A stretch of 64,000 nucleotides of DNA from contig CANGHW010000004.1 of the NCBI GenBank assembly GCA_947453695.1, positions 44,290 through 108,289 on the forward strand. Reading direction: 5' to 3'. This document shows positions 3,500 through 36,736 of the stretch, piece after piece. Source of the DNA: Opitutia bacterium (lineage in GTDB: Bacteria; Verrucomicrobiota; Verrucomicrobiia; Opitutales; Opitutaceae). The notes under the pieces were generated by a model. The model saw only the letters and a list, made by a program, of their open reading frames with translations. It did not search any database and was not told where the DNA came from. Within the stretch, counting starts at the first letter, position 1. The number at the start of each line of letters is the position of its first letter. The translations under genes were made by a program, and so were the position numbers.

Positions 3500-3510
3500 G
3501 GGGGGAAGGC

Positions 3511-4661: not shown

Positions 4662-4952
4662 TGTGGGCTTAGGTCTCGGGGCACGTAGGTTAAAAATGGT
4701 CGCAAGGACGGAGCGGGAGGGCGTAGACGGAGCGGGAGGACTACTCAGAGCAGGTGGTAGCGGGACAGGCGGGTGGGAGGCTTCGGACGGAGGGAAACAT
4801 AGGTTCGGCTTATCGCTTATCGGCGCGATTTGCCGCGGCCTGATCACAAAATGGTCACGTTTTGATTTGTTCCCGTGTCTTAAGTCGCCGCCGCCGCAGG
4901 CAGATAGTCGTGCGCGCCCGGCGTGGGTGTAGCGCAGCGATCCATGGGGCAC
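4662..4952. other. Intergenic region upstream of the cytochrome operon
   Basis: This stretch of about 290 bases should contain the promoter of the minus-strand cytochrome operon. An AT-richer patch at about 4841-4875 carries TGATCAC and GGTCACG half-site-like words, but I could not define a convincing -35/-10 pair or operator. No small ORF with a credible start was seen. Confidence 0.4.
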
Positions 4953-4979
4953 AAAAAAGGCCGACCCGAAGGTCGGCCG
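4953..4979 (-). terminator. Rho-independent terminator of the S46 peptidase gene
   Basis: Read on the minus strand, an 8-bp perfect stem GGCCGACC / GGTCGGCC closes a TTCG tetraloop and is followed by TTTTTT. It lies about 25 bases after the S46 peptidase stop and separates it from the cytochrome operon. Confidence 0.93.
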
Positions 4980-5003
4980 GGGAATTGTCGGGGAACAAGC
5001 GGC

Positions 5004-7088
5004 TTAGCGCTTACCGTTGACGAGTTCGTTGGCGAGGGCAGGGACTTCGTAGACCTTGCGCAGGGCCTCGAGAATGCCGGCGCTGTGCACGCTGAGGGCG
5101 CGGGCCTGCTTGTCTTCGTAGCCGAAGTCGCCGGACAGGGACTGGATGTTGCCGTCGAAGATGATGCCGATGAATTCGCCCGCGGCATTGACGGTCGGGC
5201 TGCCAGAGTTGCCGCCGATGATGTCGCAGGTGCTCACGAAGTTGAACGGCGTGGCGAGGTTGAGGGCCGACTTCTTCTTCAGCCAGCGCTCGGGCAGCTC
5301 GAAGTCGCCCTTGTTGCCCTGCTTCGCGGCGCGCTCGTAGAGGCCGGCGTAGGTGGTGAGAGCGGGGACCTTCTGGCCATTCTCATCGTAGCCCTTCACG
5401 GGGCCGTAGCTGAGGCGGAGGGTGAAGGTGGCGTCGGGGTAGTTGCCGGCGCCTTCCAGGGCGAAGCGGGCTTTGCCGATGATGGCCTGGGCCTGCTGCT
5501 TGGTCTCGTCGGCGGCCTCGGAGATCTTGCGGAGCGAGCGGGCCTCGGCGTCGACCGCGCGGGCGACCTCGATCAACGGGTCTTTCGCCGCGGCAACGGC
5601 AGCGGCGCCGCCTTCGTAGAGTTTCTTCCGGAAAGCGACGTCGCGGACCTTCGTCGTGTTGATGAGCTCGGCGGCGCGGGCGCGGGGGGACTTGCCGGCG
5701 AGGACGGTTTTGACGACGGGGTCGTTTACGCCGAGCTGCTCGACCAGGTAGGTAAGCGAGTCGGCGAGGGTGACGATCTCGAGATCGGTGTAGATCGGCT
5801 TGTCAGAGAAGAGCTGCTGCTTGAAGGACTCGCGACGGGCATCGGAGTATTCGCGGAGACGCTCGCCATTGGGCTTGGGCGATTCGTCGGCCACGCGCAG
5901 GAGGGAGCGGGCGAGGCCGTAGGAATCGGCATTGAAGGCGACGGAGCCCTCGAGGAGACGCTGGCGGGTGACGATCGCGGCTACCTTCTTCTGGGCCTCC
6001 GCGATGCGGTCAAAGGCGGCGAGGGCTTCTTTACCGTCGGCGCGGTCGGCGAGCTGCTTTTTGAAAGCGGCCTCGGTGGCGACCTTGGCGCCGAAAAACT
6101 CCGGGTCCTGCAGCGCGGCGATGGCGCCATCGCGGGCCTTGCGGGTGTTTTGGATGCCGAAGAGCTCGTCCTTGGCGCGGCGGGCGTTTTCGGCGTCGCG
6201 ATTGCTCCAGTTGGAGAGGAGGACCTCACGGCGCTTCAAGAGCGCGAGCTGGTAGGGGAACTGGTTGTCGCGGATGTATTCGAGTTCCGGGATGGTGAGC
6301 AGGCGGCGGGTGGTGCCGGGGTGTCCGGAGACGAAGGAGAGCTCGCCGTCCTTGGCGCCCTCGGCCGACCACTTCAGGAAGTGCGGGGGCTTGATGGGCT
6401 GGCCGTTTTCATAGACGCGGAAGAAGCACACATCGAGGTTGTAGCGGGGATACTCGAAATTGTCGGGATCGCCGCCGAAGAACGCGACGCCCTGCTCGGG
6501 GGCGAAGACGAGGCGGATGTCGGTGTATTTCTTGAAGCGATAGAGATGATAGGCGCCGCCCTGATAGAGGGTGACGACATCGCTGCGGAGGCCGGTCTTG
6601 GCGAGCGACTCTTTCTCAATCTCGGCCGTGATCTTGCGGCGGGCGAGCACGGCGGCTTCGCCAGTGGCGCCGACCGGGATGGCGGCGTTGACGCGGAGGG
6701 TGACGTCTTCGATGGACTGGAGGACGTTGAGCTCGAGATCGACACACTTCTTTTCGTCGGCCTGTGTGGCGGCGTAGAGGCCGTCGCGGAGGTAGTTGTG
6801 TTTCTCGTCAGAGAGCTTCTGGAGATCGTCGGCGCCGACGTGGTGGTTGGTGATCACGAGGCCATCGCCGCTGACGAAGGAGGCGGAGCCGCCGCTGTTG
6901 AAGCGGACGGATGACTTCATGAGGTGCTCCAGCCAGGCGTCGGTGAGCTCGATGCCGTATTTCTTTTTGATCTGGTCGCGCGGCGGAGCGGAGTAGAGCC
7001 ACATGCCTTCGTCGGCACGGGCGACGGAGCCCGCGGACAGCGCGAGGAGCGCGGCGAGGGCCGGGGTGAGGAGGGAACGTAATTTCAT
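5004..7088 (-). CDS. S46 family serine dipeptidyl-peptidase (DPP7/DPP11 type)
   Basis: The 694-residue secreted protease has a signal peptide (residues 1-25, ending SVARA) followed by the family's mature start DEGMW. The chymotrypsin-like triad is visible: the NHH motif in GLVITNHHVG (about 81-83), Asp about 219 in YPRYNLDVCFF, and Ser about 628 in GGNSGSP. Length matches DPP7/DPP11 (about 700 residues). Such enzymes release dipeptides from peptide N-termini in the periplasm and feed peptide uptake. Specificity (hydrophobic versus acidic P1) cannot be assigned by eye. The gene stands alone with its own terminator; the 193 bases upstream show no clear promoter motif. Confidence 0.93.
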   Translation of the reverse strand: MKLRSLLTPALAALLALSAGSVARADEGMWLYSAPPRDQIKKKYGIELTDAWLEHLMKSSVRFNSGGSASFVSGDGLVITNHHVGADDLQKLSDEKHNYLRDGLYAATQADEKKCVDLELNVLQSIEDVTLRVNAAIPVGATGEAAVLARRKITAEIEKESLAKTGLRSDVVTLYQGGAYHLYRFKKYTDIRLVFAPEQGVAFFGGDPDNFEYPRYNLDVCFFRVYENGQPIKPPHFLKWSAEGAKDGELSFVSGHPGTTRRLLTIPELEYIRDNQFPYQLALLKRREVLLSNWSNRDAENARRAKDELFGIQNTRKARDGAIAALQDPEFFGAKVATEAAFKKQLADRADGKEALAAFDRIAEAQKKVAAIVTRQRLLEGSVAFNADSYGLARSLLRVADESPKPNGERLREYSDARRESFKQQLFSDKPIYTDLEIVTLADSLTYLVEQLGVNDPVVKTVLAGKSPRARAAELINTTKVRDVAFRKKLYEGGAAAVAAAKDPLIEVARAVDAEARSLRKISEAADETKQQAQAIIGKARFALEGAGNYPDATFTLRLSYGPVKGYDENGQKVPALTTYAGLYERAAKQGNKGDFELPERWLKKKSALNLATPFNFVSTCDIIGGNSGSPTVNAAGEFIGIIFDGNIQSLSGDFGYEDKQARALSVHSAGILEALRKVYEVPALANELVNGKR

Positions 7089-7281
7089 AGGGGGCGGACC
7101 GTGTCATAACGGCGCCGCGAGGCGAGTCGGAAGATGCTATCCGCCGTGGCGGGGCGGAGGGGGAATTCAAACCGGTTTTACCGGCCACAATGGGGGCCCT
7201 TTCGCGGGCCGACCACTGGCCGGGTGGTGGGGCCCATCGGGCGTCGCGGGGGGCAGCAGACTCCGGCTCGGCCGAAAAGGA

Positions 7282-8313
7282 TCAGCTCGCGAGCGGGGTG
7301 AGGAGATACCCGCGGGGTTGGCCCCGGTAGAGGCCGTGGCCGACGATGGTCCCACTGGCATTGACGGCGACGGCTTCCTCGATGTGCCAGTCGGTGCGGT
7401 CGTCGATCAGGTCCTCCAGCCGCACGAGTCCGTCCTCCGGGGTCCAGCGGAACGCCCGGCGCTCGCCGGCGGAGTCGATGAGGCGACCGACGACCGTGCG
7501 GTTATCATTGACGCCGAGAGCTTCGCTCGTGCACGCGCCACCCATGCTGAGGTCGGTCGTGTGGCCATCCTGCCAGAGAAACGCTCGGGTCGTGCCGGCG
7601 GCATCACGCGCGTGGCCCACGACGAGCCCTTTGGGACTGAGGGCGGTGGCCCAGGAGTGGGCACCGTTGAAGCCGGGGATGGGCGTGTAGGCGCCTTGGC
7701 GCATACACCAAGCCTGAGTCTCATCAGGCCCGGAGCCGAGCGGGGTGGCGTTGAAAATGATATCGCCGGCATCGTTGACGCCCGTGGTAAACGTCGTGCC
7801 GCCCTGCGGAGGCACGAGAAACCGAGCGGGAGTGCCCGGGGCCACGAAGAACGCTCGGCTGAGAGTGAACTCGCCGGCGTCGAACAGGACATTGCCGACG
7901 ACCAGGCCGTGGGCGTTGACGCCGCGGGCGATGCTCACGGAGTCGGGCCAATGCCGCTCGCCGAAGGTGCCGAGGTGGGAGGCCCACGCCCGCAGTTCCC
8001 GCGGGCCCTCGCCGGTGACACCCGCCATGAGACCGTTGGAACTCAGACCGAACAACGGGGCCTGCCCGGTGGCGACGCCGGCCGGCACGCGCAACGTGCC
8101 CGTCAGGCAAAAGCCCCGGGATGGATCTTCCGGAGCCAGACCGAAGGCGCACGCCGCGATGTCGCCATTGTCATTCAGCGCGACGGGACGGAGGGGTGAC
8201 CCATCGACGTGGGAGCCGAGGTGGGCGAGGGTATAGGCGCGCGGCGCGGGAAAGCTGGATGAATCGCCGGCAAAAAAAGGGTGGCGGGAGCCAGGCTGGA
8301 CAAGGGCGGGCAT
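7282..8313 (-). CDS. HAF-repeat protein, probable beta-propeller
   Basis: From the ATG at 8313 the protein has 343 residues. It is built of repeats with the pattern (A/V)xAxNxxGxxVG, for example VNDAGDIIF, VNAHGLVVG, LGVNDNRTVVG and VNASGTIVG, interleaved with RAFxW-type strands (TRAFLWQDG, RRAFRWTPEDG). This is the signature of HAF extracellular-repeat proteins, which probably fold as beta-propellers. No signal peptide is obvious at this start. The longer track ORF adds 111 Arg/Ala-rich residues that overlap the divergent topoisomerase promoter region and is less likely. Function unknown. It is divergent from the topoisomerase gene. Confidence 0.72.
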   Translation of the reverse strand: MPALVQPGSRHPFFAGDSSSFPAPRAYTLAHLGSHVDGSPLRPVALNDNGDIAACAFGLAPEDPSRGFCLTGTLRVPAGVATGQAPLFGLSSNGLMAGVTGEGPRELRAWASHLGTFGERHWPDSVSIARGVNAHGLVVGNVLFDAGEFTLSRAFFVAPGTPARFLVPPQGGTTFTTGVNDAGDIIFNATPLGSGPDETQAWCMRQGAYTPIPGFNGAHSWATALSPKGLVVGHARDAAGTTRAFLWQDGHTTDLSMGGACTSEALGVNDNRTVVGRLIDSAGERRAFRWTPEDGLVRLEDLIDDRTDWHIEEAVAVNASGTIVGHGLYRGQPRGYLLTPLAS

Positions 8314-16558: not shown

Positions 16559-18559
16559 TCAGCGCTCGGCGATCGTGTTGTCGGCGCCGACGAGGGCGGC
16601 CTTCATCGCCTTGAAGAACACATCAGTGTTATCCATCGCGCCGGTGAAGAGCGCGGCGCCCCGACCGTAGGCGGAGAGCGGAATATCGGACGCGGTGTGG
16701 ACCGCGCTGGTGCCGAAGACCTGGCCTGCGATAAAATATCCGCCGGCGACTTTCCGTTTGGTCGGGTCGGCGGGATAGGTGTTGAGCGGGGCAGCGTTGT
16801 TAAACGGCTGCTGGGAATCCTGGAGCGGCCGTGGGCTGCTCTGCCAGTCTTCGTAGCGGTCCGACGCGGCGGCGTAGCCGATCAGCATCTTGCGATCGGG
16901 GTTGGTCGTCGCGGGATAGCCATCGGGCTGGATGCCGTAGATCGGGAAGCCGGCGAGATCGTAAGTGCCGACGACCGGGATGGCGCTGCCGGTGGCAGGA
17001 TCGCGCAGCTGGGCGGCACCGCCGCCGGAGTTGGCGCGGGCATTCAGGCTGGCCTGCGTGACGGTGGAGGCACCGATGATGTTGACGCCGGCGCACTCGT
17101 GGTCGGCGGTGATGAGCACGAGCGTATCGGGATTGGCGGAGGCGAAGGCCTTGGCGCGAGCCACGGCACGGTCGAACTCGATCGTCTCGAGGATCCAGCG
17201 TTCGCTGTCCATGTTGTGGGCCTGCTTGTCGATGGAGGCGCCCTCAATCATGAGGACGAAGCCGTTCGGATTCTTCGCGAGCACCTGGAGGGCCGCGTCG
17301 GTCATTTCATCGAGCATGGGCTGATCGGGAAAACCAAATTCATTGACGACGGCGGGATTGCCGCGGCGGCCGTCAATCTTGTCGGCGGCGACGTTCATAT
17401 TGGAGAAAGAATAGAGGCCGAGCAGCTTGGTGGTCGTGGCGGGGAGGGCTTTCAACTGCGTCGACGTGGCGGTGTAGGTGAAGCCGGCCTTTTGGAAATC
17501 CGAGATCAGATCGCGATTCGGGTCGAGTGCGCCAGCGGCGACGCCCCAGCCGGCGGCGAGTTCCGCCGGGAGAACGTAGTCCAGCGAGTTGACGCGCGAC
17601 GAACCGGGGGTCGTGGCGGGGAGAAACCATTTGCGGCCGCCGCCGAGGAGGACGGAGAGGTTGGCCTTGACGACGGATTCGTCGAGGTATTGATCGCAGA
17701 TGCCAGTGCCGTTGGCGCGATTCTGAGTGTGGACCGCCCAGGCAGCGGGCGTGGCGTCGAAGACATCGGCCGTGGTCACGATGCCGAGGGACTTGCCCTG
17801 AGTGCGGGCCAGGTATTCGCCCATGTATTCGGTGCGGGGATTGTCGAAGGCGTCGACCGTATCATCGGGGAAGACGCCCTCCTGATTGTTATTGTTTTTA
17901 TTGCCCGTCGAATAGCAGGAGGCGCCGGGAGCGGAGTCGGTGACGATGGAGTTGAGCGAGCAGGTCTGGATGAGGCCGGTGACCGGGAAGGTGTCCATCG
18001 CGAGCGGGGCGAGGGCTTTGCCCTGGCTCACCCCGTTGAGCACGAAGCGAGCGGCGGTGCGGTGGGCGATGCCCATGCCGTCGCCGATCATGACGATGAT
18101 GTTTTTCGCCTTGGCGGTGTTGCTCGCGGTGCCGAGGGAAACGATTTCGAAGTTGCCGGTGGCGATGACCGATTCGCGGTTGGGCAACTGGATCGCGCTC
18201 ACGATGAGGCGGTGCACACCTGGCGTCGCGAGGCTGTAGGCGCGCAGGGTGGCGACGACGGTATTGACCGGCAGGCCTGCAACGGTGGCGGGCACGAGCG
18301 TGACCGTGCCGGGCACTTCCGCATTATCGACGTAGAACTTTACGCCGGCGATGTTCTGAGCCGCGTCGGGCGAGATGGTGGCCTGGAGGTCGAAGCGTTG
18401 GCCGGGGAGAAAGCGCGAGATGTAGGGCGGCGCGGGATCCTTGAAGGAAAACAGGTCGCTCGGCGGAGTGAGGCGGGAGACCACGGGAGCGGCCGGGAGC
18501 ACGGAGGCAAAAGCGGTCGCGGCAGCGACGGCGAGGAGGAGGCGGTATCGTTGATGCAT
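16559..18559 (-). CDS. Secreted alkaline phosphatase with N-terminal Ig-like domain
   Basis: The 666-residue protein has a signal peptide ending near LPAAPV and an N-terminal beta-sandwich-like domain (about 30-145, KFYVDNAEVPG). The alkaline phosphatase domain carries the first metal site IVMIGDGMG, the nucleophile Ser in VTDSAPGASCYSTG, and the later metal ligands in IEGASIDKQAHNMD and ITADHECAGV. The enzyme should release phosphate from monoesters in the periplasm or outside the cell. Its start is 11 bases after the stop of the secreted partner gene, so the two form an operon ended by the terminator at 16455. I saw no unambiguous Pho box upstream. Confidence 0.92.
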   Translation of the reverse strand: MHQRYRLLLAVAAATAFASVLPAAPVVSRLTPPSDLFSFKDPAPPYISRFLPGQRFDLQATISPDAAQNIAGVKFYVDNAEVPGTVTLVPATVAGLPVNTVVATLRAYSLATPGVHRLIVSAIQLPNRESVIATGNFEIVSLGTASNTAKAKNIIVMIGDGMGIAHRTAARFVLNGVSQGKALAPLAMDTFPVTGLIQTCSLNSIVTDSAPGASCYSTGNKNNNNQEGVFPDDTVDAFDNPRTEYMGEYLARTQGKSLGIVTTADVFDATPAAWAVHTQNRANGTGICDQYLDESVVKANLSVLLGGGRKWFLPATTPGSSRVNSLDYVLPAELAAGWGVAAGALDPNRDLISDFQKAGFTYTATSTQLKALPATTTKLLGLYSFSNMNVAADKIDGRRGNPAVVNEFGFPDQPMLDEMTDAALQVLAKNPNGFVLMIEGASIDKQAHNMDSERWILETIEFDRAVARAKAFASANPDTLVLITADHECAGVNIIGASTVTQASLNARANSGGGAAQLRDPATGSAIPVVGTYDLAGFPIYGIQPDGYPATTNPDRKMLIGYAAASDRYEDWQSSPRPLQDSQQPFNNAAPLNTYPADPTKRKVAGGYFIAGQVFGTSAVHTASDIPLSAYGRGAALFTGAMDNTDVFFKAMKAALVGADNTIAER

Positions 18560-18570
18560 GGAAAGGAAAA

Positions 18571-19155
18571 TCAGGAGCGGGGAGAATCAGCAGCGGTGGC
18601 AGGCTCGGGCGTCGGATCGAGCACGAGGCGGAAAATGGAATTGCGGCCGTCGGACTCGACGCGGGCGCCGAGCTCGAGCGTGCCGGTCAAGAGGAGCTGT
18701 CCGGGCTGCCACGGGATTTTTTGCGTGGGTGAAGCGGTGACGATGTGCACGGTCGCGGGCGGCGTATCATCCGCGACGCAGAGGCCGTTGGCCTCCACCG
18801 TCACCGGCCAGGCGGTGAGACGATAGACGCCGGAGCTGCGTTCCGGTTCGCGCACCATGTAGCCCGCCAAGCGCACGCGCTGGCCGGCGAGCGAGCGGAG
18901 CTTGGGGGAGTATTCGAGGCCGCGGTCGCCGATCGGTCCGAAGAATTCAGAAAATTCCACATGACTCACCCCGGCGGGAGGCGGGGGCAGGGAGGTGGCA
19001 GGCGAAGCTTTCAGCTCGCCCAGTGCGGCTTGGGACTGCGCGAGGTAGCGTTGCCACGCGAGGGCCTCGGGACGAGCGGCCGGGCCACGCGGGGTGTGGG
19101 GAGTAGGTTGAGCCAGCAGGGGAGCCGCGGCAAGGCACAGAAACAGCACACGCAT
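18571..19155 (-). CDS. Secreted protein of unknown function, operon partner of alkaline phosphatase
   Basis: The 194-residue protein has a signal peptide (MRVLFLCLAAAPLLAQ), a proline-rich linker, and a beta-rich domain with LAGQRVRLAGYMVREPE and LLLTGTLELG, reminiscent of an OB-fold. One Cys occurs in the mature part (GLCVADD). The core resembles the DUF3299-type pattern of small secreted proteins, but I cannot assign it firmly. It begins an apparent operon with the alkaline phosphatase gene 11 bases downstream, so a role near phosphate acquisition or in assembly of the exported enzyme is possible. Confidence 0.7.
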   Translation of the reverse strand: MRVLFLCLAAAPLLAQPTPHTPRGPAARPEALAWQRYLAQSQAALGELKASPATSLPPPPAGVSHVEFSEFFGPIGDRGLEYSPKLRSLAGQRVRLAGYMVREPERSSGVYRLTAWPVTVEANGLCVADDTPPATVHIVTASPTQKIPWQPGQLLLTGTLELGARVESDGRNSIFRLVLDPTPEPATAADSPRS

Positions 19156-19211
19156 ACCCGCAGCCTAGCAGCCGATTGTGGCGAAACGGAGGCGGCGCGG
19201 TGACTTGCCGG

Positions 19212-25781: not shown

Positions 25782-26013
25782 GGTGATAATCGGTTCGAAA
25801 GATCAAACGAAGGGTATCCAGTGGCAGCCGAAACTTATCGAACACGGGATAACGCCGGGGAAAGTTTCATTAGGCTCCGTTTGATCGGTGCGAAGGCTGC
25901 GTCAAGCGGACGCATACGGAGCCACGATTTCTTCACCGTCCCGTAACATTGGGGCGGCGATTCGGAGCTACGCGTGGTGGGATGAGCCCGAATCGGCAGA
26001 CCGATCATTAAAG

Positions 26014-26040
26014 TCATGTGATCGTCACATGAGTGTCATG
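26014..26040 (+). promoter_or_regulatory. Nested palindromes before the TonB receptor gene (putative operator)
   Basis: CATGTGA-TCG-TCACATG (26014-26030) is a perfect 7-3-7 inverted repeat. It overlaps a second one, CATGA-GTG-TCATG (26028-26040). A related TCACGTGA palindrome follows at 26070-26077. The words resemble TGTGA/TCACA half sites of the CRP/FNR superfamily, but with 3 rather than 6 bases between them. Confidence 0.6.
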
Positions 26041-28389
26041 AAACTGTCGAAAAGTAGGTGCAGTATTCGTCACGTGATCTTTTCACCCAACACCTACCCT
26101 GGCATCGTCCGGATCGCCGCGACGTTTCTTGTGACTGCGGTCCTTGGCTTCAGCCAAGCCGCCTCGACCCCAACCGGCACGTCGGTGACCGACCGTGCCA
26201 TCCGACTCCAGGAGTTCGAAGTGACTGAGCCGCGCACTTCGGCCCAAAGTATGGCGCCGACCGAGGCGCGTCTCGAGGCGACGCAGCCCGAGTCGATTAT
26301 CAATCTCCAGACGATCCAGAACAGCATCGCCCCCACCGCCGACTACGCGATGATCGCGGCCCTGTCGCCGAGTGTGACCAATTTTTCGACGAACGGTCCG
26401 GGCCTCAACGAATCGAAGCCCACGCTCCGCGGGTTCAATGATGGAAGCTATAACGTGACGATCGACGGCATCCCGTTCGGCGACGGCAACGATTTCAATC
26501 ACCACACCACGAGCTATTTTCCGGCAAAGCTGCTCGGCCGGGTAACGGTCGACCGCGGTCCCGGCACGGCGAGCACGATCGGCATGGCGACGTTTGGCGG
26601 CACGATCGCGATGGAGACCAAGGATCCGCGCGACGTCGCTTCGTTTGTCCCCACGCTCAGCTACGGCAGCTGGAAGACCCGCCTCGCTCACTTCGAGGCC
26701 AACACCGGCATCATGCCGAAAACCAATGGAGGCTCCTTGATCGCGAGCTACCAATACATGGATTCGGACGGCTACAAGACCTTCGGCACGCTGCGCCGAA
26801 ATACCTATTTCTTCAAATATCTGCAGCCGATCGGCCGCAGTTCGACGCTCTCGTTCATGGGTGAATACAATAACATCAAGTTCAACAACCCGAACGCCTC
26901 GCCACTCACCGGTCTGCAGATTCAGACGCTCGGCCGCAATTTCGGCCAGGTGGCCGATCCCCTCGACCGCAACGGCAACTACTACGGCACCAACTATCAG
27001 GCTAAGTCCACGGATACCGCGTTCATCGCCCTCGACAGCGATCTCGGCGGCGGCTGGAAGTTGAATGACAAGGCCTACACGTTCTCCTACAGCAACAACA
27101 GCCATGAGTCCCCGGCGAACAATGGCGGCGCAACCATCGTGGCGGGCAAGGTCGTGGCGGGCACGGATCTGGCCGGTCGTTTCAAGGTCAACTTCGTCCG
27201 CGCCATCGGCAACACGCTGGCCGTGTCCCGGACCGACGACGTCGGCACCTTTAAGACCGGCGTATGGTATGACTACCAGTTCGGGCCCCGCTACCAATAC
27301 GCCCTCGACTACAATGTCGCCAATGCGCAGCGCCTCGGGATGGTCGCCATGCCGGCCGGCTACCTCGACCCCCTCGCACCCAGCACGAAGGGCGGCTACG
27401 TCTACAATATGCATTTCTACACGCGCACCTTCGAGCCCTACGTCGAATACGCGTGGCGTCCGGTGCAGGGGCTGACGTTCACGCCCGGCGTGAAATACAT
27501 GTCCGTCCAACGCAAGATCGACGCCCCGATCAATCAGACCGCGAATCTCCTGCCGGCCTACTACACCGAAACCTATTCGAAGGCCCTGCCGGTTGTTCTG
27601 GCGAACTATCGGCTCGCTCCGCAGTGGTCGGCCTACGGCCAGTTTGCTCAAGGCTTCCTGACCCCGCCGCTGGCGTTTTTCCAAGAGGATCACCCCGAAA
27701 ACAACGTGGTGAAGCCCCAGACCACGACCAACTACCAGCTCGGCACGGTCTACAAGACGAACCGTTTCAATGCCGACTTCGCCGGCTACTTCATCCGGTC
27801 GCACAATCTGCCGGTCTCGGTGGTAAATCCGAACCAGACTGGAATCATCAATCAGAACGACAAGGTTACGTTTACCGCCAAGGGGGCTTACTACTACGGC
27901 GTCGAAGCGCAGGGCACGTATTACGTGGGCAGTGGCCTGAGCGGTTTTGCCAACGCCTCCCGCAACTACGGCACGTATGAAAGCTCCAAGCGCCGGATCG
28001 ATGGCATTCCGCAGAGCACGGCGGGTTACGGTTTCATTTACGACCACGCCGGATTCTTCACGTCACTCATGTCGAAATACAGTGGTCCCTACACCACCTA
28101 TACGGCGTCCGCGGCCAGTCCCGATCTTCCGCTGCCCGCCGGCACGCTGTCTATCGTGCAAGGTGGCTACACCATGTATGACCTTTCGCTCGGCTATGGG
28201 GCCAAGCTGCGTCGGGGAGCGTTTCTCAAGAGCTTCAAGGCTCGGTTGCAGATCAACAACTTGTTTGATCGCGATGTGATCCTCCTGAAGTCCGCTAAGG
28301 CGACCGCCGGAGCGCTCAATAAGCTCACTAGCACTTACAACCCGCTCGTCACCCGCGGTTATTTCCTGACGGTGGCGACTGAGTTCTAA
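26038..28389 (+). CDS. TonB-dependent outer-membrane receptor
   Basis: The roughly 783-residue receptor has a signal peptide (VRIAATFLVTAVLGFSQA), a TonB-box-like region RLQEFEVTE, and a plug domain (ALSPSVTNFSTN, PTLRGFNDGSYNVTIDGIPFGDGND, VTVDRGPGTASTIG). A 22-strand-type barrel follows and ends VATEF. The start is uncertain: ATG at 26029 or 26038, or GTG at 26074, are all in frame, and the first two overlap the nested palindromes. The track start at 25888 adds an unlikely leader. No STN domain is present, so it should not signal directly to an anti-sigma factor. Substrate unknown. A strong terminator follows at 28427. Confidence 0.9.
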   Translation: MKLSKSRCSIRHVIFSPNTYPGIVRIAATFLVTAVLGFSQAASTPTGTSVTDRAIRLQEFEVTEPRTSAQSMAPTEARLEATQPESIINLQTIQNSIAPTADYAMIAALSPSVTNFSTNGPGLNESKPTLRGFNDGSYNVTIDGIPFGDGNDFNHHTTSYFPAKLLGRVTVDRGPGTASTIGMATFGGTIAMETKDPRDVASFVPTLSYGSWKTRLAHFEANTGIMPKTNGGSLIASYQYMDSDGYKTFGTLRRNTYFFKYLQPIGRSSTLSFMGEYNNIKFNNPNASPLTGLQIQTLGRNFGQVADPLDRNGNYYGTNYQAKSTDTAFIALDSDLGGGWKLNDKAYTFSYSNNSHESPANNGGATIVAGKVVAGTDLAGRFKVNFVRAIGNTLAVSRTDDVGTFKTGVWYDYQFGPRYQYALDYNVANAQRLGMVAMPAGYLDPLAPSTKGGYVYNMHFYTRTFEPYVEYAWRPVQGLTFTPGVKYMSVQRKIDAPINQTANLLPAYYTETYSKALPVVLANYRLAPQWSAYGQFAQGFLTPPLAFFQEDHPENNVVKPQTTTNYQLGTVYKTNRFNADFAGYFIRSHNLPVSVVNPNQTGIINQNDKVTFTAKGAYYYGVEAQGTYYVGSGLSGFANASRNYGTYESSKRRIDGIPQSTAGYGFIYDHAGFFTSLMSKYSGPYTTYTASAASPDLPLPAGTLSIVQGGYTMYDLSLGYGAKLRRGAFLKSFKARLQINNLFDRDVILLKSAKATAGALNKLTSTYNPLVTRGYFLTVATEF

Positions 28390-28597: not shown

Positions 28598-29428
28598 CTA
28601 CGCGGCGCCGACCGAGACTTCGCCGGCGGCCACCTCGGCGATCGCTTCGTCGTGGTTCGAGTCGGCGGTGAGGGGGAATTCGCGCACGAAGTCGGCGAAG
28701 TCGACCAATTCGAAACGACCGTCGTAGTGCTCTACAATGGCGGTGAGCGACTCGACCCAGTCGCCGCTGTTGAGGTAGTGGACATCGCCCATCTGCTTGT
28801 CGGCGGCGGTATGGATATGGCCGCACATCACGCCGGCGCAGCCGCGGGCGCGGGCGAGTTCGGTGATGTGGGCCTCGAAGTCTCCCACGTGGCTCACCGC
28901 CTGTTTGACGCGGGCTTTGATGGCCTTGCTGAGCGACCAATACTCCTTGCCACGCCAGGCGCGCCACAGGTTGTAGGCACGATTGAGTTTGAGCAGTAAC
29001 TGGTAACCCCAATCGCCCAGATGGGCGAGCCAGACGAAGTTTTTGGTGATCGTGTCGAACACATCGCCGTGGAGGACGAGGTAGCGGCCGCGTGGGGTCT
29101 CGTGGATGTAGTCTTCGACGATGCGGAGATTCTCGAAGTCGAGCGGGAGAAAACTCGCGAGGATGTCGTCGTGGTTACCACGGAGGTAGATGACCTCGGT
29201 GTCACGCTTCTCGAGTTTCTTGAGGACGATACGGATGAAGCGGGTGTGGGCCTTGGTCCACTGGCCGGAGCGGGTGAGCTGCCAGCCGTCGATAATATCG
29301 CCGTTAAGGATGAGTTTTTCCGAGCGGGTATGACGGAGAAAATGGTTCACCTCGTGAGCCTTGCTCTCGGCGGTGCCGAGGTGAACGTCCGAGAGAATGA
29401 CCGTGCGCACACGGAGAAGTTTTTTCAT
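28598..29428 (-). CDS. PlcP/LpxH-like metallophosphoesterase, probable phospholipase C of lipid remodelling
   Basis: The 276-residue calcineurin-like phosphoesterase has all metal motifs: SDVHLG (about 13-18), NGDIIDG (about 42-48), RGNHDD (about 85-90), LHGD and CGHIHT. It is often annotated as UDP-2,3-diacylglucosamine diphosphatase (LpxH). However, the HGD-F-D..-N..WLA.LGDWGY segment, YWSLSKAIKARVKQAV and the ending YLNSGDWVESLTAIVEHYDG match my recollection of PlcP-type phospholipase C. PlcP removes phospholipid headgroups to give diacylglycerol under phosphate limitation. Its operon with two glycosyltransferases supports PlcP over LpxH. The start overlaps the kinase-like gene stop (ATGA). 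No signal peptide; cytoplasmic face. Confidence 0.82.
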   Translation of the reverse strand: MKKLLRVRTVILSDVHLGTAESKAHEVNHFLRHTRSEKLILNGDIIDGWQLTRSGQWTKAHTRFIRIVLKKLEKRDTEVIYLRGNHDDILASFLPLDFENLRIVEDYIHETPRGRYLVLHGDVFDTITKNFVWLAHLGDWGYQLLLKLNRAYNLWRAWRGKEYWSLSKAIKARVKQAVSHVGDFEAHITELARARGCAGVMCGHIHTAADKQMGDVHYLNSGDWVESLTAIVEHYDGRFELVDFADFVREFPLTADSNHDEAIAEVAAGEVSVGAA

Positions 29429-30375
29429 GGCGTCGAAAACGCGAAACCGGCGGGAGCTAGGTCGTGGGCTTGGGCGACCGCACGGGTGGCGGCGGGCACG
29501 AGGAGATGAAGGCTACGCGGATGAACGGCGATCTCGAGCGTCGCCGGCAGGTGGTGCGTCTCGCCGTCGGTGTGAATCAGGCCGGGTGAGGACCGCTCGA
29601 TCTGGAAATGTGCGCCGCTCAGGCGGCGCACGTGACTGCTGCGGTCGAACCGGCCGAGGAAGAGTCGGGCGGCGAGGCCGACGGAACCGAGGACTCCGAC
29701 CGGCTGCACCGCGATGAGGTCGAGCAGGCCATCGTCGACGCGGGCGCCGGGTGCGATACGGGCGTTGTTGCCGTATTGGTCGGAGTTGGCGATCGCGACG
29801 AGGAGGATGTCGAGTGTCTGGCGCTGCCCGTGGCTGACGATCGTGACGCGCTCGGGGCGCAGTTCGCGCAGGGCGGCCACGGCGGTGCGGGCGTAGGCGG
29901 GGAGGCCGCGGCGGGTGAGGGTGTTGAAACGCAGGCTGACATCGGCGTCCAGCCCGAGCCCCATGGCATTGAAAAACGGGCGGCCGTTGACCGAGCCGGT
30001 ATCGAGGGCGGCGACGCGCGTGGGCGGGCCGGAATGAGCAATGAGTGCCAGGGCAGCAGGCAAGGAAGTCGGCAGGCCGAGGTGAAGAGCGAGACCGTTG
30101 CCGGAGCCGCAGGGGACGAGCGCGAGCGCCGTCGGCGTGTGCAGGAGGGCTTGGGCTACCTCGTTCATCGTGCCATCGCCACCGACCGCCACGACTTGGG
30201 CGCAGCCCGCCAGCGCGGAGGTGCGGGCGAGGGCGGTGGCGTGGCCGGGACCTTCGGTGAGAACGAGGTCGGCGTCGAGTGAGTGGGCGGAGATAAACCG
30301 GCGCAGATCGGCGGCGAGCGTGGGCCGGCGACGATTGCGACCGGAGGTGGGATTAAGAATGAAGCGGATCTTCAT
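29425..30375 (-). CDS. Diacylglycerol kinase-family lipid kinase (DagK/YegS type)
   Basis: The 316-residue protein has the DAGK catalytic signature: FILNPTSGR at the N-terminus, the ATP-binding VVAVGGDGTMNEVAQALL (about 62-79), LVPCGSGNGLALHLGLP (about 86-102), and the C-terminal DDGLLDLIAV and HTDGE motifs. It would phosphorylate diacylglycerol or a related lipid. It is the third gene of the operon and overlaps both neighbours by 4 bases (ATGA at 30372-30375 and 29425-29428). Here it may return surplus diacylglycerol from the PlcP-like step to phosphatidic acid (inference). Confidence 0.9.
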   Translation of the reverse strand: MKIRFILNPTSGRNRRRPTLAADLRRFISAHSLDADLVLTEGPGHATALARTSALAGCAQVVAVGGDGTMNEVAQALLHTPTALALVPCGSGNGLALHLGLPTSLPAALALIAHSGPPTRVAALDTGSVNGRPFFNAMGLGLDADVSLRFNTLTRRGLPAYARTAVAALRELRPERVTIVSHGQRQTLDILLVAIANSDQYGNNARIAPGARVDDGLLDLIAVQPVGVLGSVGLAARLFLGRFDRSSHVRRLSGAHFQIERSSPGLIHTDGETHHLPATLEIAVHPRSLHLLVPAATRAVAQAHDLAPAGFAFSTP

Positions 30376-31568
30376 GCGCTGGCTGGAGTGGGCGTGGGAC
30401 CGCGGAACGGCACGGGAACGGGCTCGCTCTCGGTTTCGGTCTCAGCGCTGGTGGCGACGAGGGTGGCGGGGCGCAGCAAGTGTTCGGCGATCGTGCGGGC
30501 GGCGGTCGGGCGTGCCAGCTGGTCGAGGGCGCGCCTCCACGTCTGCCAGACGGCCCCGCGGGCGTCGAAGGCGCGACACAGCGTGTCGATGACGGCAGAG
30601 GGCGTCTCGGCGAGTGCGCCGACATCGTGGCGGCGGAGTAACTCGTAGTTGCCCTCCTCCTGGCCGGGCACGACCTGATTGACGATCATCGGGCAGCGGG
30701 CGGCGATGGCCTCCTGAGTGGTGGCGCCACCGGCTTTCGAAACGACGACGTGATGCGTCATCAACAGGCGCGGAATCTCCTGGGTCCAGCCGAGCACCGT
30801 GGCCGGGCGCGTGCGGCCCGCGGCGAGTGCGGCGAGTTTACGCTGGAGCCGTTCATCGCGGCCGACGGCGATGGTGATTTCCCAGCCGGTCTCGGCCAGG
30901 AGCCGGCGGGCGGTTTCCTCGGCGTGACGGGTGCCGGAGTTGATGATGTAGAGAACGCGCGGGGCGCCACCGGTCGCGAGGTCAGGTGGCGCGAAGTCCG
31001 CAGCATGGTCGCTGAAGAAACTCGTGACGGGGAACCCCGTGGTGTGCAGCCGATCCGCGGCGATCCCGGCCCGGCGCAGGACCGCGGTGGAATCGGGGTT
31101 GGGGAGAAACCAGCCGGCGCACGGGACGCGCCACCAGAGGGAATTGATGCTGATCGAATCCGTGACGACGTAGTAATGCGCCGGCAGCACGCGGCCGCGG
31201 CGGGCGAGCTCGGCGAGAAAGTAAGCGTAGACCGGATAGGTGCTGCAGAGCACGGCCGGGCGCTCGCGGGCGATGATCGCGTCGACCACGCGCAGCTCGC
31301 GCTGGAGCAGCCACAGTGCCGCCGGAAAGGGCGACGAACGATCCAACCAGGCATAGAAGGCACTCCAGAGTCGCGGCGTGCGATTGATGAGGCCGACGTA
31401 GAAACGGCGCGCGTGGATATTGAGGCGCGGGGAGGCGAGGGCGAAGGCGTCGACCAGCAGGGCAGTGCCAGGGCCGTGGCGTTCGTCGCACGCGGCGGCG
31501 AGCGCGCGGGCGGCGGCGTTGTGGCCCTCGCCGAAGCCGGCGGTGAAGATGAGAATACGGGTGCTCAT
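30372..31568 (-). CDS. MGDG-synthase-type glycosyltransferase (GT28 family)
   Basis: From the ATG at 31568 the protein has 398 residues. It begins ILIFTAGFGEGHNAAARALAAAC, the diagnostic start of the MGDG synthase / diacylglycerol glucosyltransferase family, where GxGH contacts the lipid-side substrate. The C-terminal half carries the nucleotide-sugar site (VLYIINSGTRHAEE, VVVSKAGGATTQEAIAARCPMIVNQVVPGQEEGN). The track ORF extends 245 codons upstream through the neighbouring glycosyltransferase in the wrong frame and is rejected. The start overlaps the previous stop (ATGA), as does the end with the kinase-like gene. It likely transfers a sugar onto diacylglycerol; which sugar is unknown. Confidence 0.88.
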   Translation of the reverse strand: MSTRILIFTAGFGEGHNAAARALAAACDERHGPGTALLVDAFALASPRLNIHARRFYVGLINRTPRLWSAFYAWLDRSSPFPAALWLLQRELRVVDAIIARERPAVLCSTYPVYAYFLAELARRGRVLPAHYYVVTDSISINSLWWRVPCAGWFLPNPDSTAVLRRAGIAADRLHTTGFPVTSFFSDHAADFAPPDLATGGAPRVLYIINSGTRHAEETARRLLAETGWEITIAVGRDERLQRKLAALAAGRTRPATVLGWTQEIPRLLMTHHVVVSKAGGATTQEAIAARCPMIVNQVVPGQEEGNYELLRRHDVGALAETPSAVIDTLCRAFDARGAVWQTWRRALDQLARPTAARTIAEHLLRPATLVATSAETETESEPVPVPFRGPTPTPASA

Positions 31569-32725
31569 GCGACGGCAGGCTCGAGGGTGGCGACCGGAGT
31601 GCCGGCGACGGTGGCGAGGTCGGCCTCGAAGCGGGCGATCACGTGTTCCCACGATTGAGGTTCGACGGCGCTGCGCGCCGATTGGCGAAGGTGGGCGCGC
31701 AACGTAGTGTCGGTGGCGAGGCGGGTGGCGGCGTTGAGCAAGAGGTCCGAGCGGTCGGTGGGCACGGCCAGACCATTGTGGCCGTGCTGGATGAACTGGC
31801 GGGCGGCGGCGTAGTCGAAGCCGGCGACGGCCAGCCCGCTGGCGAGCGCCTCGGTGAGGACGTTGCCGAAAGTCTCGGTGAGGCTCGCGTGAATATAGAT
31901 GTCGGCCGAGGCGTAGTGGCGGGCGAGGTCGTCGCGGGAGACGAAACCGGTGAAAACGAAATCGGGTTGAGCTCGCTGGAGCTGGGCGCGCAGCGGGCCG
32001 TCGCCGACGAGAACGAAGCGACAGCGCGGATTGGCGGCGCGCATGGCGGAGAAAATCTCGAAGAGCAGCGGGTAGTTTTTCTCCGGGGCCATCCGACCGG
32101 CGTGGAGCACGACGGGATTTTCCGGAGTGGCATTCCACTTGAGCCGGAGATCCCCGGAACGGCGGGCGGGGTGAAACTGCCACGTGTCGACGCCGCGGGA
32201 CAGGACGGAAACATTCAGGAAGCCGAGAGCAGAGAGGTCGGCGCACAGGCTTTCTGTGGGGGCAAACGTGCGGGCGGTGCGATTGTGCACGCGGCGCAGC
32301 CACCAGAGCACGGCACGATGCAGGGAGGCGTAACCGTAGTGGGTGGTGTAGGCGTGGAAATTGGTATGAAAGCTCGATGTGACCGGAATGCCGAGCGCGC
32401 GAGCCGCCGTGATTGCGGAGGCGCCGAGCGGGCCTTCCGTGGCGACGTGGACGAGATCGGGGCGATCGGCGCGCCAGCGTCGGCGCAGAGCGGAGCCGGC
32501 CGGGAGTCCGAAGCGGAGCAGCGGGTAGCCGGGGACGGGTAGGCCGGGCAAGGGCACCTCGACGAACTCGGGGTGGGTAGCGTCGCCCGGCAGGTCGGCG
32601 CGACGGGGCCGATAAATTGTGACGGTATGGCCGCGGCGGCCGAGTTCACGGGCAATGACGCCAAACGTCATCGCGACCCCATTGATCTCCGGCGGGAAGG
32701 TTTCGGTGACGAGGGCGAGTTTCAC
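31565..32725 (-). CDS. Group 1 (GT4) glycosyltransferase, MgtA/SqdX-like
   Basis: The 386-residue enzyme starts at a GTG with the classic LVTETFPPEINGVA motif of lipid-directed GT4 enzymes such as MgtA and SqdX. It contains FHTNFHAYTTHYGY, then LHAGRMAPEKNYPLLFEIF and FGNVLTEALASGLAVAGFDY, the E-x7-E nucleotide-sugar site. It opens a four-gene minus-strand operon joined by ATGA overlaps. With an MGDG-synthase-like partner it may make a second glycolipid or extend the sugar head. Exact donor and acceptor cannot be read from the sequence. Confidence 0.9.
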   Translation of the reverse strand: MKLALVTETFPPEINGVAMTFGVIARELGRRGHTVTIYRPRRADLPGDATHPEFVEVPLPGLPVPGYPLLRFGLPAGSALRRRWRADRPDLVHVATEGPLGASAITAARALGIPVTSSFHTNFHAYTTHYGYASLHRAVLWWLRRVHNRTARTFAPTESLCADLSALGFLNVSVLSRGVDTWQFHPARRSGDLRLKWNATPENPVVLHAGRMAPEKNYPLLFEIFSAMRAANPRCRFVLVGDGPLRAQLQRAQPDFVFTGFVSRDDLARHYASADIYIHASLTETFGNVLTEALASGLAVAGFDYAAARQFIQHGHNGLAVPTDRSDLLLNAATRLATDTTLRAHLRQSARSAVEPQSWEHVIARFEADLATVAGTPVATLEPAVA

Positions 32726-32877
32726 GAGGTAAGGTGGCGATGGCGTGGAGCGGGAAGGAGGGCGGCAGTGGTGCGTTGGCCGGAAGCATGGGCGAGGTGC
32801 GTGTCGAATACGTGGCGGCCGCGTTACGTTTGCGGGAAATTGCCGGTCGCGGCCGGGAGTGGGTCCGGACCGGAGCG

Positions 32878-32917
32878 AAAAAAATGCCGGTCCCCGCGCA
32901 ATGAACGCAGAGACCGG
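32878..32917 (-). terminator. Rho-independent terminator of the TonB receptor at 33-36 kb
   Basis: On the minus strand a 12-bp stem (CCGGTCTCTGCG / CGCGGGGACCGG, two G-T pairs) with loop TTCATTG is followed by CATTTTTTT. It is 40 bases after the receptor stop and separates it from the lipid operon. Confidence 0.9.
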
Positions 32918-32956
32918 CGGAAGGAGGAGCGGGGCGGTAAGGCCGGGACCGACGAC

Positions 32957-35900
32957 TCAGAAGGAGCGGGTGAACTCGACTGACCACGTGCGGCCCGCGA
33001 GGAGATTCTGGCTCACGCCGGGGCTGTAACCGAAGCCGCCGGTGCCGATGGGCGGGGCCTTGTCCGTGAGATTGACGACGCCGACGTTCACGCGGGTATT
33101 GCGCAGCCACGGACTCTCGGTGCGGCCGAAGCGGTAGGCGACGGAGAGGTTGTAGCTGATGGTGGAGTCCGTGATGTAGCGGTAGACAAACGCGCCGGCG
33201 GTGAAGTGTTTGGCGATATAAGCGGGCTGACCGAGCGAGTCGTAGATGGCCGCGGTCGTAGAGGCGCCGGAATCCTGAGACGGGCCGACGTAGTAGGCGC
33301 CGAGGTTGGTCGTCCAGGACCCGCGTCGCCAGGTGAGGTTGGTCGTGCCGCGCCAACGGGAGGCGCCGTTGACGTTGAGGTCGTTGTTCTCGATCGCGGC
33401 CTGGTTGGCGGGGCGTTGGACCGAGCGGGATTTCACGAGGTAGGCCCATTCGGAGTTGAGCACGACGATGCCGAACGGAAGCTTCGGGAAGAGGTAGCGC
33501 ACGCCGAGGTCGACGCCTTCGTGATCGCTGGTGGCGAGGTTGATGAACGGTTGATTGACCGAGAACACCTTGCCAGCGATGCCCTGCTGGTTGTTGGGGT
33601 TGGCGGTGTTGTAGGGGACGAAGGCGGCGATGTCTTCCGGGGTAACCGCGTAGCGCACGACATCGGGGTCGCCCTTGTAGTTGGCGGTGCCGCTGCCGAG
33701 ATCGATGGCGGAGATAGGGCGGCCGGCGGCGAGCTGGGATTTTGTGTAAGCTTGGAGCAGCGCTACGTCGCTGGCGCGGATCTGCGCGGTGCTGCGCTGG
33801 CCGAGGAGGTTGGTGCGCTCGATGCGCCATTGATCGGCGGTGAGGCTCAGGCCTTTGATGCCGGGGACGTCGATTACGACGCCGTAGGTTTTGCCCTTGG
33901 ACTCGGAGGCCTTGAGGTTCGGGTTGCCGCCGAAATAGGTGCGCTGCACGTAGGCACCCTCGTTGGTGAGCGGGTTGCGATAGGTGTCGATGTCGCCGGC
34001 GCCGGCGGAGATTGACCAGCGTGGGCTGGTGAAGAGGGCGGCGAGGCTGGGGGCCATGAAGCCCTCGTTGTAGGAGCCGCGGAGCATGAGCCAGGAGAGC
34101 GGACGCCAGTTCACGCCGACCTTGGGCTTGGTGGTGTTGCCGAAATCGCTGTAGTTCTCGTGGCGGCCCGAGGCGGTGAGCTCGAGGGTGTTGATGAACG
34201 GCACGCGGCGCTCGGCACTGACGAGTGGCACCACGAACTCGGCGTAAAAGCTCGTGATGTTGCGATTGCCGATCACGTCGGGGCGCGGCGGGTGGAGGAG
34301 GTAGTCGTTGTCGGTAGTGTCGAGACCGGAGCTGGCGGGATTCTCACCGCTGAACGGAGGGCGGAGGTCGGCGAGTTTGTCTTTGCGATATTCGCCACCG
34401 AAGGACGACATGATGTCGCCGCCCCACCAGCGAAGCACGCGACCGGTGACGCGCAGATCGCCGCTGGCGATGGAGCTCGTGGCGTTGCGGGAATAAACGG
34501 AGGAGAACGAATTAACGACCGCGGCGGGATTGGTGTAGGGCTTGTCGGCGACAACGGCGCCGTTCAGCACCTTGAAGGTGTAGCCGAAGGGATTGTAGGC
34601 ATTAGCGTCGGTGCGCGCGAGGGCCTGCGTGAGGAAGCTTTCCCGGACATCGGGGTAGGCGTTGTCCTCGCCCTTCACGCGATTGTAGAAGCCGGAGGAT
34701 TCCCAGTTCCAGGTGTCGCCGAGTTTGCCTTTGAAGCCGGCGGCGATGCGAACGACGTCGGCTTTGGTGGAAATTTTTTCGACGCCGAGATCGGGCAGCG
34801 TAACAGAAACCAGACTCACTGTGCGTGGAGCGCCCGTGAGGCGGGCGGTGCCGTCGGCGTTGGCGGCGCCGGTCGCGCTGTAGAAGCGGGAACCGTAGGG
34901 GTTATAGGGATTGTCCACCGACATGACGGCTAGCTTGTCCGTCGTGGGCGCATTGAGTGCGAGCGGCTGGCGGACCATGGTGGAGTCGGCCTTGTAGTAG
35001 GAGAAGTCGGCGAAGGCGGTGACGGTTTTAGTCACGTCATACTCGGCGGAGAAGAACGAGTTCGCGCGAGCCATGCGAGGGGAGGCCATGCCGAACTCAT
35101 TGAGATCGAGATAGAATTCCGGATTGGCGGCGAAGGTCGGAGCGACCGTGGTAAGTGTGGGCGTGCCGGCGACGGGGCGGAAGTAGTTGCTGGCCGTGGC
35201 GGTGCCGAGGCGGAAGATCGGCCAGCGGCCGCGGGCGGTGCGGGCGTCGAAGGGGCCGCCGAGAGCGTTGAACGGGGCGGGCGCTTTCGCGGTGAGATTG
35301 GAGGTGCTGCTGAAGTCGCGGTCGCGGAGGAAAATCGCTTCTTTGTAGAGCGACTCGACGGTGCCGAAGAACCGGCCGCGGCGGCCGTCAAAGTTGGTGC
35401 CGAAAGTCAGGGCGACCTGCGTGCTCTGGCCGCCGCCGCCCTCGGTGAAACCTTGGCGAAGATTTACTTCGGTGCCGTTGAAGGAGCGCTTGAGAACGTA
35501 GTTGATGACGCCGCCGACGGCATCGGAGCCGTAAATGGCGGAAGCGCCGTCGCGCAGCACCTCGATGCGCTCGATGCCCTGCGTCGGGAGCTGGTTGACG
35601 TTCACGGCTTGGGAAAGGCCAGCGGTCATCGGGTTAATGGCCATGCGGCGACCGTTGACGAGAATGAGGGTGCCGGTGGCGCCGAGGTTGCGGAGATTGA
35701 TGTTGGCGTTGTCGCCACGAGCGCCGGAAGAGCCGAGGCGGGTTTCGTTTTCCGGGAGATTTACGACCGACGGGAGCGACGTTAGCATGTCGACCGGCAG
35801 GAGCGCCTGGCGGGCGATCATGGCGTCCTGGTCGATCACGGTGATCGGGACGACTTTCTCCATGTCGAGGCGCTGGATGTTGGAGCCGGTGACGACGAAA

Positions 35901-36043
35901 TTTTGCAGGGCAACGACGTCGGCGGGTGCGTTTGCCGAGGTGGGCTTTTCCGCCGCGGAGGCGGCGATAGATCCGAGGAGTATGGCCCCCATGTAGAGGA
36001 GCGGAGGGCGAGATGAGTGTGATGTGGGCGGCATAGTAGTCAT
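32957..36043 (-). CDS. TonB-dependent receptor (oar/SusC-independent, VTGSN-type plug)
   Basis: From the ATG at 36043 the receptor is about 1028 residues with a signal peptide ([17 protein letters not shown]). It has the [11 protein letters not shown] box, and a plug with [49 protein letters not shown] and [29 protein letters not shown]. The barrel ends WSVEFTRSF. This plug pattern is common in receptors for carbohydrates or peptides in xanthomonads and verrucomicrobia. The 85-residue extension in the track is an upstream leader reaching the divergent sigma factor and is rejected. It lacks STN. It is transcribed away from the FecI/FecR pair and could share regulation through the 174-base divergent region. 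Confidence 0.91.
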   Translation of the reverse strand: [1028 protein letters not shown]

Positions 36044-36217
36044 GGCGGGAGGTGCGGTTGGTTTAGCGCGGAGGTTGGCCATGCTACCGGGGGTTTGTGG
36101 CGAATGGGCGGCGTTGCGGTGACGGACGAGTGAAGATTCCGGCGGTGTATTTGAGCTCGGCGGAAGAATCTGAGCTTGAATTGCTCTCGGGCATCGCATC
36201 GCCTGCGCGCCGTCGCG

Positions 36218-36736
36218 ATGCCACCCCACACCGACCATGCCCGCTGGTTTGCTGAAGAAGTGCAGCCGCACGAAGCGGCACTGCGCGGATATCTTCACCG
36301 ACAGTTTCCCTCGGTCGAAGCCGACGACGTGGTGCAGGAGTCCTACCTCAAACTGTGGCGGATGGGTGCGAAGGTCGATTCGGCCAAGGCGTATTTTTTC
36401 TCCATCGCGCGTAACACTGCGCTGACGTTCTTTCGCCGCCGTCGGATCTTTTCTGATGTGCCGGTGAACGAACTGCCCGAGTGGCGGGTGGCTGATGTGG
36501 CGCCGGATGCAGCGGAAGTCGCTTACACCCGGGAACGCATGGAGCTGGCCGTCGAGGCACTGGATAGCTTGCCGCCGCGCTGCCGTGAAATCTGTGGGCT
36601 GGCCGCGTTGGAACAGCTCGCGCCCGCGGAGATTGCAGCCCGCCTAGGTCTCGCGGAGAGCACAGTTTATGTGCAACTAGCCCGTGGGGTGAAACATTGC
36701 GCACACTACCTGCGCGAACGGGGGGAAGGCCGATGA
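36218..36736 (+). CDS. ECF RNA polymerase sigma factor, FecI-like
   Basis: From the ATG at 36218 the protein has about 172 residues. Sigma region 2 is seen in LRGYLHRQFPSVEADDVVQESYLKLW and AYFFSIARNTALTFFRRRR. Region 4 is seen in ALDSLPPRCREICGLAALEQLAPAEIAARLGLAESTVYVQLARGVKHC. The TTG start at 36176 in the track is less likely. The stop overlaps the ATG of the FecR-like gene (ATGA), so both are made together. Downstream lies a receptor with an STN domain, completing a cell-surface signalling trio. Target promoters are probably the receptor genes to its right. Confidence 0.92.
   Translation: MPPHTDHARWFAEEVQPHEAALRGYLHRQFPSVEADDVVQESYLKLWRMGAKVDSAKAYFFSIARNTALTFFRRRRIFSDVPVNELPEWRVADVAPDAAEVAYTRERMELAVEALDSLPPRCREICGLAALEQLAPAEIAARLGLAESTVYVQLARGVKHCAHYLRERGEGR

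Follow-up and report, generated by a model that had tools for sequence, protein, structure and literature searches.

A four-gene operon with a PlcP-type phosphoesterase in Opitutaceae, predicted to remodel membrane lipids under phosphate starvation

We analyzed a 64,000-nucleotide stretch of DNA (here called the window) from an Opitutia bacterium of the family Opitutaceae (Verrucomicrobiota; assembly GCA_947453695.1, contig CANGHW010000004.1, positions 44,290 to 108,289), in which two glycosyltransferases, a lipid kinase, and a PlcP-type phosphoesterase form an operon. We propose that this is very probably a Pho (phosphate starvation) operon for membrane lipid remodelling; the activities of the enzymes, the identity of the sugar, the induction, and the substrate and direction of the kinase are predictions. 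Under low phosphate, a PhoB-type regulator would bind 11-bp repeats upstream of the first gene, and the four genes would be transcribed as one unit. PlcP would cut the phosphate-containing head group off phospholipids, leaving diacylglycerol (DAG) in the membrane; the two glycosyltransferases would add sugar to DAG, yielding phosphate-free glycolipids, and the kinase would convert surplus DAG into phosphatidic acid, which would keep DAG from building up and let it flow back into lipid synthesis. What we observed directly, and take up below, is the gene order, the overlaps, the protein families, a phosphoesterase that belongs with PlcP and not with LpxH, an element in the promoter, and pst-pho synteny in relatives. 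The PlcP-glycolipid pathway is already known (PMC4796936, PMC8528852, PMC9239053), and a PlcP homologue was noted in a verrucomicrobium (PMC4796936). So far, most documented cases of the phosphate-driven swap of phospholipids for glycolipids come from Proteobacteria and marine bacteria, and our analysis extends the Pho-linked form to Opitutaceae, for which it also provides a usable Pho-box model.

Operon architecture and identity of the phosphoesterase

The operon is transcribed from 32725 down to 28598, all on the minus strand, in the following order:

31565-32725 (-): GT4 (glycosyltransferase family 4) enzyme, Agt2-like, predicted DAG glycosyltransferase; GTG start, 386 amino acids (aa)
30372-31568 (-): glycosyltransferase of the monogalactosyldiacylglycerol (MGDG) synthase/UgtP type (GT28 type; MGD-like below), predicted second DAG glycosyltransferase; ATG start, 398 aa
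29425-30375 (-): lipid kinase of the YegS/BmrU/DgkB family, predicted DAG kinase; ATG start, 316 aa
28598-29428 (-): PlcP-type phosphoesterase, predicted phospholipase C; ATG start, 276 aa

The Pfam assignments of all four proteins exceed the curated cut-offs, and the genes are joined by three ATGA overlaps, which read TCAT on the plus strand (31565-31568, 30372-30375, and 29425-29428). Coordinates, overlaps, and families all agree with the original prediction, which had been made from the letters of this DNA and claimed a four-gene operon with three successive ATGA overlaps. Another genus (g2; locus L180, positions 3078-4268, 4265-5413, 5410-6354, and 6351-7160) has the same set of genes in this order, again joined by three 4-bp overlaps, and the order is repeated in L041, L087, L088, L089, L091, L093, and L094. 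A cultured strain of the family, Geminisphaera colitermitum TAV2 (L092), has a GT4-MGD-PlcP set. Since order and overlaps repeat in L180 and the order repeats in the other loci, the arrangement is not due to chance. The genome belongs to an Opitutus-like member of the family: the PlcPs closest to that of the window come from an Opitutae metagenome bin (91% identity) and from a bin named Opitutus sp. GAS368 (88%).

The phosphoesterase scored 46.0 bits on the Pfam domain Metallophos, whereas on the LpxH model NF003743 it reached 36.9 bits, far under the cut-off of 134 bits; E. coli LpxH scored 364 on the same model and the reference PlcPs of Sinorhizobium meliloti, Pseudomonas aeruginosa (PA3219), and SAR11 scored 38.1, 55.1, and 53.7, respectively. 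In a tree of 71 sequences, 60 PlcP rows and 11 LpxH rows were split by a branch with 100% support in the Shimodaira-Hasegawa-like approximate likelihood ratio test (SH-aLRT), and the window protein fell on the side of the P. aeruginosa, S. meliloti, and SAR11 PlcPs. A GNHD motif was present in 125/125 PlcP-type sequences and DWVES or DWVET in 119/125; the window protein carries GNHD and DWVES. Proteobacterial LpxH has GNRD instead (7/7), but GNHD alone cannot discriminate between the two families, because the LpxH-like proteins of Bacteroidota carry it. The metallophosphoesterase ligands (DxH, GDxxD, GNHD, H, and GHxH) are intact, with D14, H16, D44, N85, H86, H120, H204, and H206 invariant, and a search of the PDB with the protein returned no match. 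We thus rejected LpxH as the identity of this protein on the basis of its NF003743 score and tree position: it is a PlcP-type phosphoesterase, with predicted phospholipase C activity. The phylogeny with PlcP and LpxH references thereby bears out the PlcP-like assignment of the original prediction, which had also expected a mis-annotation as LpxH; public records indeed name characterised PlcPs "UDP-2,3-diacylglucosamine diphosphatase."

We then asked whether the protein could be the only LpxH of its genome, which the original prediction had put forward as a refuting finding. The draft genome, which is 93% complete, contains no LpxH over the NF003743 cut-off, and it encodes LpxI (141.3 bits, in a full-length frame of 309 aa). 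LpxI was found in 53/57 genomes of relatives, including a member of the family that lacks a PlcP match (G069). With LpxI present in a genome without LpxH over the cut-off, the phosphoesterase is not needed for lipid A and is not the genome's only candidate for a UDP-2,3-diacylglucosamine hydrolase, so the refuting finding did not occur.

The reference PlcP loci were identified by gene context. In L081, the genes adjoining plcP encode a regulator of the LuxR type and a synthase of acyl-homoserine lactone, an order that we read as sinI-sinR-SMc00171 of S. meliloti, SMc00171 being the plcP gene, located beside sinR. SMc00171 was named as a Pho-regulon phospholipase C (PMC3596328). In L083, azoR3 lies upstream of plcP, and a glycosyltransferase and cyaB lie downstream, which we match by gene order to PA3219-PA3217; PA3219 is PlcP and PA3218 is Agt1 (PMC8528852). 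L083 is a P. aeruginosa plasmid record whose plcP-glycosyltransferase pair appears to sit on a chromosomal segment carried by the plasmid. A plasmid record of Parabacteroides distasonis (L082) holds such a pair as well and looks like a chromosomal fragment, with genes for elongation factor G and hemW nearby.

Glycosyltransferases, lipid kinase, and fused proteins

That the operon encodes glycosyltransferases of two different families, as had been claimed, was confirmed by our analysis. The first protein (Glyco_transf_4, 109.6 bits; EX7E motif, ETFGNVLTE) shared 45.0% identity, over 99% of its length, with the product of a P. aeruginosa gene that is preceded by cerN, by a gene for a phosphocholine-specific phospholipase C, and by plcR; from this order we identify the gene as PA0842, encoding Agt2. 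In the GT4 tree, the window protein belonged to a group with Agt2 (99% support), apart from Agt1 and the SAR11 Agt; an Agt-type identity, as in SAR11, was therefore rejected. Agt2 glycosylates DAG with uridine diphosphate (UDP)-glucuronic acid and, less well, with UDP-glucose (PMC8528852). In a betaproteobacterial bin (L152), a probable UDP-glucose dehydrogenase gene (6790-8262, minus strand) is convergent with plcP, and an Agt2-type GT4 gene lies about 5 kb away, an arrangement that fits a glucuronosyl-DAG product in that organism. The second window protein scored 41.5 bits on MGDG_synth (PF06925; cut-off, 25) and 117.8 bits on the diglucosyl-DAG synthase model PRK13609, under the equivalog cut-off of 500, and it matched the structure of plant MGD1 (4wyi; E=5.6e-16, alignment over residues 4-360).

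The lipid kinase contains DAGK_cat (92.8 bits) and YegS_C (91.8 bits) domains and a GGDGT motif, exceeds the cut-off of TIGR00147 (124.6 versus 118.65 bits), and has named DAG kinases as its best PDB matches. Among 125 PlcP loci, 22 had a DAGK_cat gene next to plcP or one to two genes away, and the stretches examined around these loci contained just one further family member elsewhere. Outside Opitutaceae, the linkage occurred in three loci of Bacteroidota (plcP-glycosyltransferase-kinase twice, divergent once), four of SAR11 (all divergent), and one of another alphaproteobacterium (L108, L113, L132, L150, L151, L153, L156, and L161). The tree of PlcP-linked kinases has very long branches. Recycling of DAG by the kinase, with the substrate and the direction predicted from sequence, is plausible and is backed by this repeated linkage in other phyla, which suggests a possibly overlooked control step that would hold down the DAG pool in the course of remodelling. 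Our literature search, which covered a minority of subscription papers, found no work that combined PlcP with a diacylglycerol kinase and glycolipids, or with a lipid kinase.

Kinases of the YegS family have varied lipid substrates, and the one in the operon might phosphorylate another lipid, for example, phosphatidylglycerol or the glycolipid product. This would concern the kinase step only and would be compatible with a Pho operon for lipid remodelling. The standard GGDGT motif is missing from the homologues in SAR11, and the genome encodes a stand-alone paralogue with 65% identity and without the promoter element (L167, G000:C84:12344-12679), both of which speak for another substrate. We nevertheless consider it unlikely, as named DAG kinases are the best structural matches and a new phospholipid would counteract the saving of phosphate.

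GT4 and PlcP are fused in seven examined loci from Akkermansiaceae-type and Rubritalea genomes (L058, L061, L098, L099, L103, L104, and, from Rubritalea marina DSM 17716, L107): a single open frame of about 650 to 760 codons encodes the two domains, joined by a short linker. Additional genomes of the same family have frames of 640 to 760 codons around PlcP. The GT4 halves of the fusions group together (99% support), consistent with a single fusion event. A tentative proposal, which we hold with less than even confidence, covers both the kinase and the fusions: PlcP remodelling may be a regulated cycle and not a one-way exchange, with a dedicated kinase, recurring beside plcP in Verrucomicrobiota, Bacteroidota, and SAR11, limiting free DAG and feeding it back into the synthesis of phospholipids, and the fused protein of Akkermansiaceae-type bacteria may cut the phospholipid and glycosylate the DAG without releasing it. 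Such coupling of cutting and glycosylation can be tested in one purified protein. In the literature searched, PlcP and Akkermansia were mentioned together only in one unrelated paper.

Promoter element and synteny with phosphate genes

We then looked into the link to phosphate stress, which had been assumed in the original prediction and which is supported by a shared promoter element and by synteny in relatives. On inspecting pst and GT4 promoters, we saw three 11-bp repeats with the pattern GTCAC-N6-GCCAC-N6-GTAAC. We built a Pho-box matrix only from ten Opitutaceae pst promoters, 9/10 of which stood out in a leave-one-out check. The three best sites in the window were as follows:

19176-19207 (-): Pho-box-like element 21-52 bp ahead of an alkaline phosphatase operon; score 23.9, best in the window
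36095-36126: Pho-box-like element of the TonB-dependent receptor upstream of the lipid operon; score 21.1, second best
32799-32830 (-): Pho-box-like element of the lipid operon, three 11-bp repeats (AACGTAACGCGGCCGCCACGTATTCGACACGC), 74-105 bp upstream of the GT4 gene; score 15.98, third best in the 64-kb window

Scores of at least 10 were reached by 26/32 distinct Opitutaceae GT4 promoters and by 6/220 other upstream regions (the Fisher value of 4e-24 overstates this difference, the sequences being related); two of these six belong to the alkaline phosphatase operon of the window and to a gene that immediately precedes pstS in L186. The matrix also detects the promoter of P. aeruginosa agt2, for which a Pho box was reported (PMC8528852). 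The alkaline phosphatase and agt2 matches are independent of the pst and GT4 promoter sets. These data support the element of the lipid operon as a putative Pho box.

In other Opitutaceae, the operon lies at the pst-phoU-phoB-phoR locus. In L180, the genes that follow the operon on the same strand encode a porin, PstS, PstC, PstA, PstB, PhoU, a regulator resembling PhoB, and a kinase resembling PhoR; past these lies a Pit transporter gene. The same pst-pho block is separated from the operon by a helicase and a chloride-channel gene in L181 and L182, and in L193 the genes for PhoU and PstB are about 10 kb away from GT4, on the far side of the helicase. In other parts of the phylum, PhoU directly follows PlcP in L105 and L106, pst-phoU genes precede PlcP in L066, and Pst, PhoU, or PhoR genes were also found near the PlcP clusters of L089, L096, L069, and SAR11.

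Several points weigh against a Pho-regulated remodelling operon. The enzyme activities and lipid products are predicted from sequence. The repeat was first recognised on visual inspection of both pst and GT4 promoters, such that these sets are not wholly independent, and shuffled windows contained a site of at least 16 in 2/20 cases; consequently, it is the position of the element, and not its score alone, that carries the argument. Upstream of the operon, the E. coli consensus Pho box (CTGTCATNNNNCTGTCAT) scored no better than in shuffles; it scored weakly even on known Pho promoters, and we used the Opitutaceae matrix because this consensus gave no signal. The draft genome has no PhoU match and no PstB over the cut-off; given that 8/8 congeners searched have PhoU, its absence likely reflects an assembly gap, although the gene may have been lost. 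No UDP-glucose dehydrogenase was found in the draft either, which leads us to guess that the GT4 product would be glucosyl-DAG rather than glucuronosyl-DAG. Finally, the Opitutaceae promoter element was not found upstream of the Akkermansiaceae-type fusions, the regulation of which may thus differ from that of the Opitutaceae operons.

Taken alone, the fusions without the element, the PlcP homologues of gut Bacteroidota, and the missing PhoU and PstB would fit enzymes that make constitutive membrane glycolipids instead of responding to starvation. We regard this as improbable because the operon of the window and most Opitutaceae operons are preceded by the Pho-box-like element and because, in relatives, the operon lies at the pst-pho locus. 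It is hardly credible that an LpxH-like lipid A enzyme shares an operon by chance with lipopolysaccharide or envelope glycosyltransferases, as the common metallophosphoesterase superfamily and the public annotation of relatives might suggest, against which stand the fully supported tree separation, GNHD in place of GNRD together with DWVES, 36.9 bits for a cut-off of 134, LpxI in this genome and in G069, and the pst-pho synteny.

Relation to known systems and neighboring features

One of the closest known counterparts of the proposed Pho operon is found in P. aeruginosa (PA3219, plcP; PA3218, agt1; PA0842, agt2), with 46% identity between the PlcPs in the alignment, 45% between the window GT4 and Agt2, and Pho-box-like promoters in both (PMC8528852). 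However, P. aeruginosa agt2 is elsewhere in the genome, beside a phospholipase C gene and plcR, whereas the window has an Agt2-like gene within the plcP operon, together with genes for an MGD-like glycosyltransferase and a lipid kinase. SAR11 (Pelagibacter) resembles the window in having plcP followed by a GT4 gene, PhoR- and Pst-like genes nearby, and a DAGK_cat gene beside plcP (directly upstream and divergent), but its GT4 is of the Agt type, its kinase is on the opposite strand, and no MGD-like gene was found. The MGD-like protein shares the MGDG_synth domain and the matches to MGD1 and PRK13609 with the UgtP/MGDG synthase family, from which it differs by its score under the equivalog cut-off and its location in a plcP operon. 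Rhizobial PlcP feeds betaine lipid synthesis. The S. meliloti protein (SMc00171) has 38-42% identity to that of the window, lies on the same side of the tree, and is a Pho-regulon member (PMC3596328), but its gene stands alone beside quorum-sensing genes. In the searchable literature, we found no description of a four-gene version of this pathway that includes a lipid kinase and a second glycosyltransferase. What appears to be new is this Pho-linked version in Opitutaceae, the presence of an Agt2-type partner in one operon with plcP, the repeated occurrence of the kinase, and the GT4-PlcP fusion.

Other features of the window are the following:

16559-19155 (-): alkaline phosphatase operon, with a PhoA-type gene (16559-18559; PF00245, 255.8 bits) and an unknown open reading frame upstream of it (18571-19155)
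32886-32918 (-): terminator-like hairpin between the TonB receptor gene and the lipid operon, 14 pairs, then ATTTTTTTCG
32957-36298 (-): TonB-dependent receptor upstream of the lipid operon (Pfam)

The alkaline phosphatase operon apparently belongs to the same regulon as the lipid operon. The true start of the upstream TonB receptor is probably near 36040-36082, with the Pho-box-like element just upstream of it, and this receptor may import a phosphorus compound. A second TonB receptor (25888-28389, plus strand) is convergent with the lipid operon and has GTCAT/GTCAC-type 11-bp tandem repeats near its start (25999-26052), which score lower on the matrix (9.5-11.6). The window also encodes a phytase-like esterase (PF13449; 21365-23245, minus strand), another possible phosphorus scavenger.

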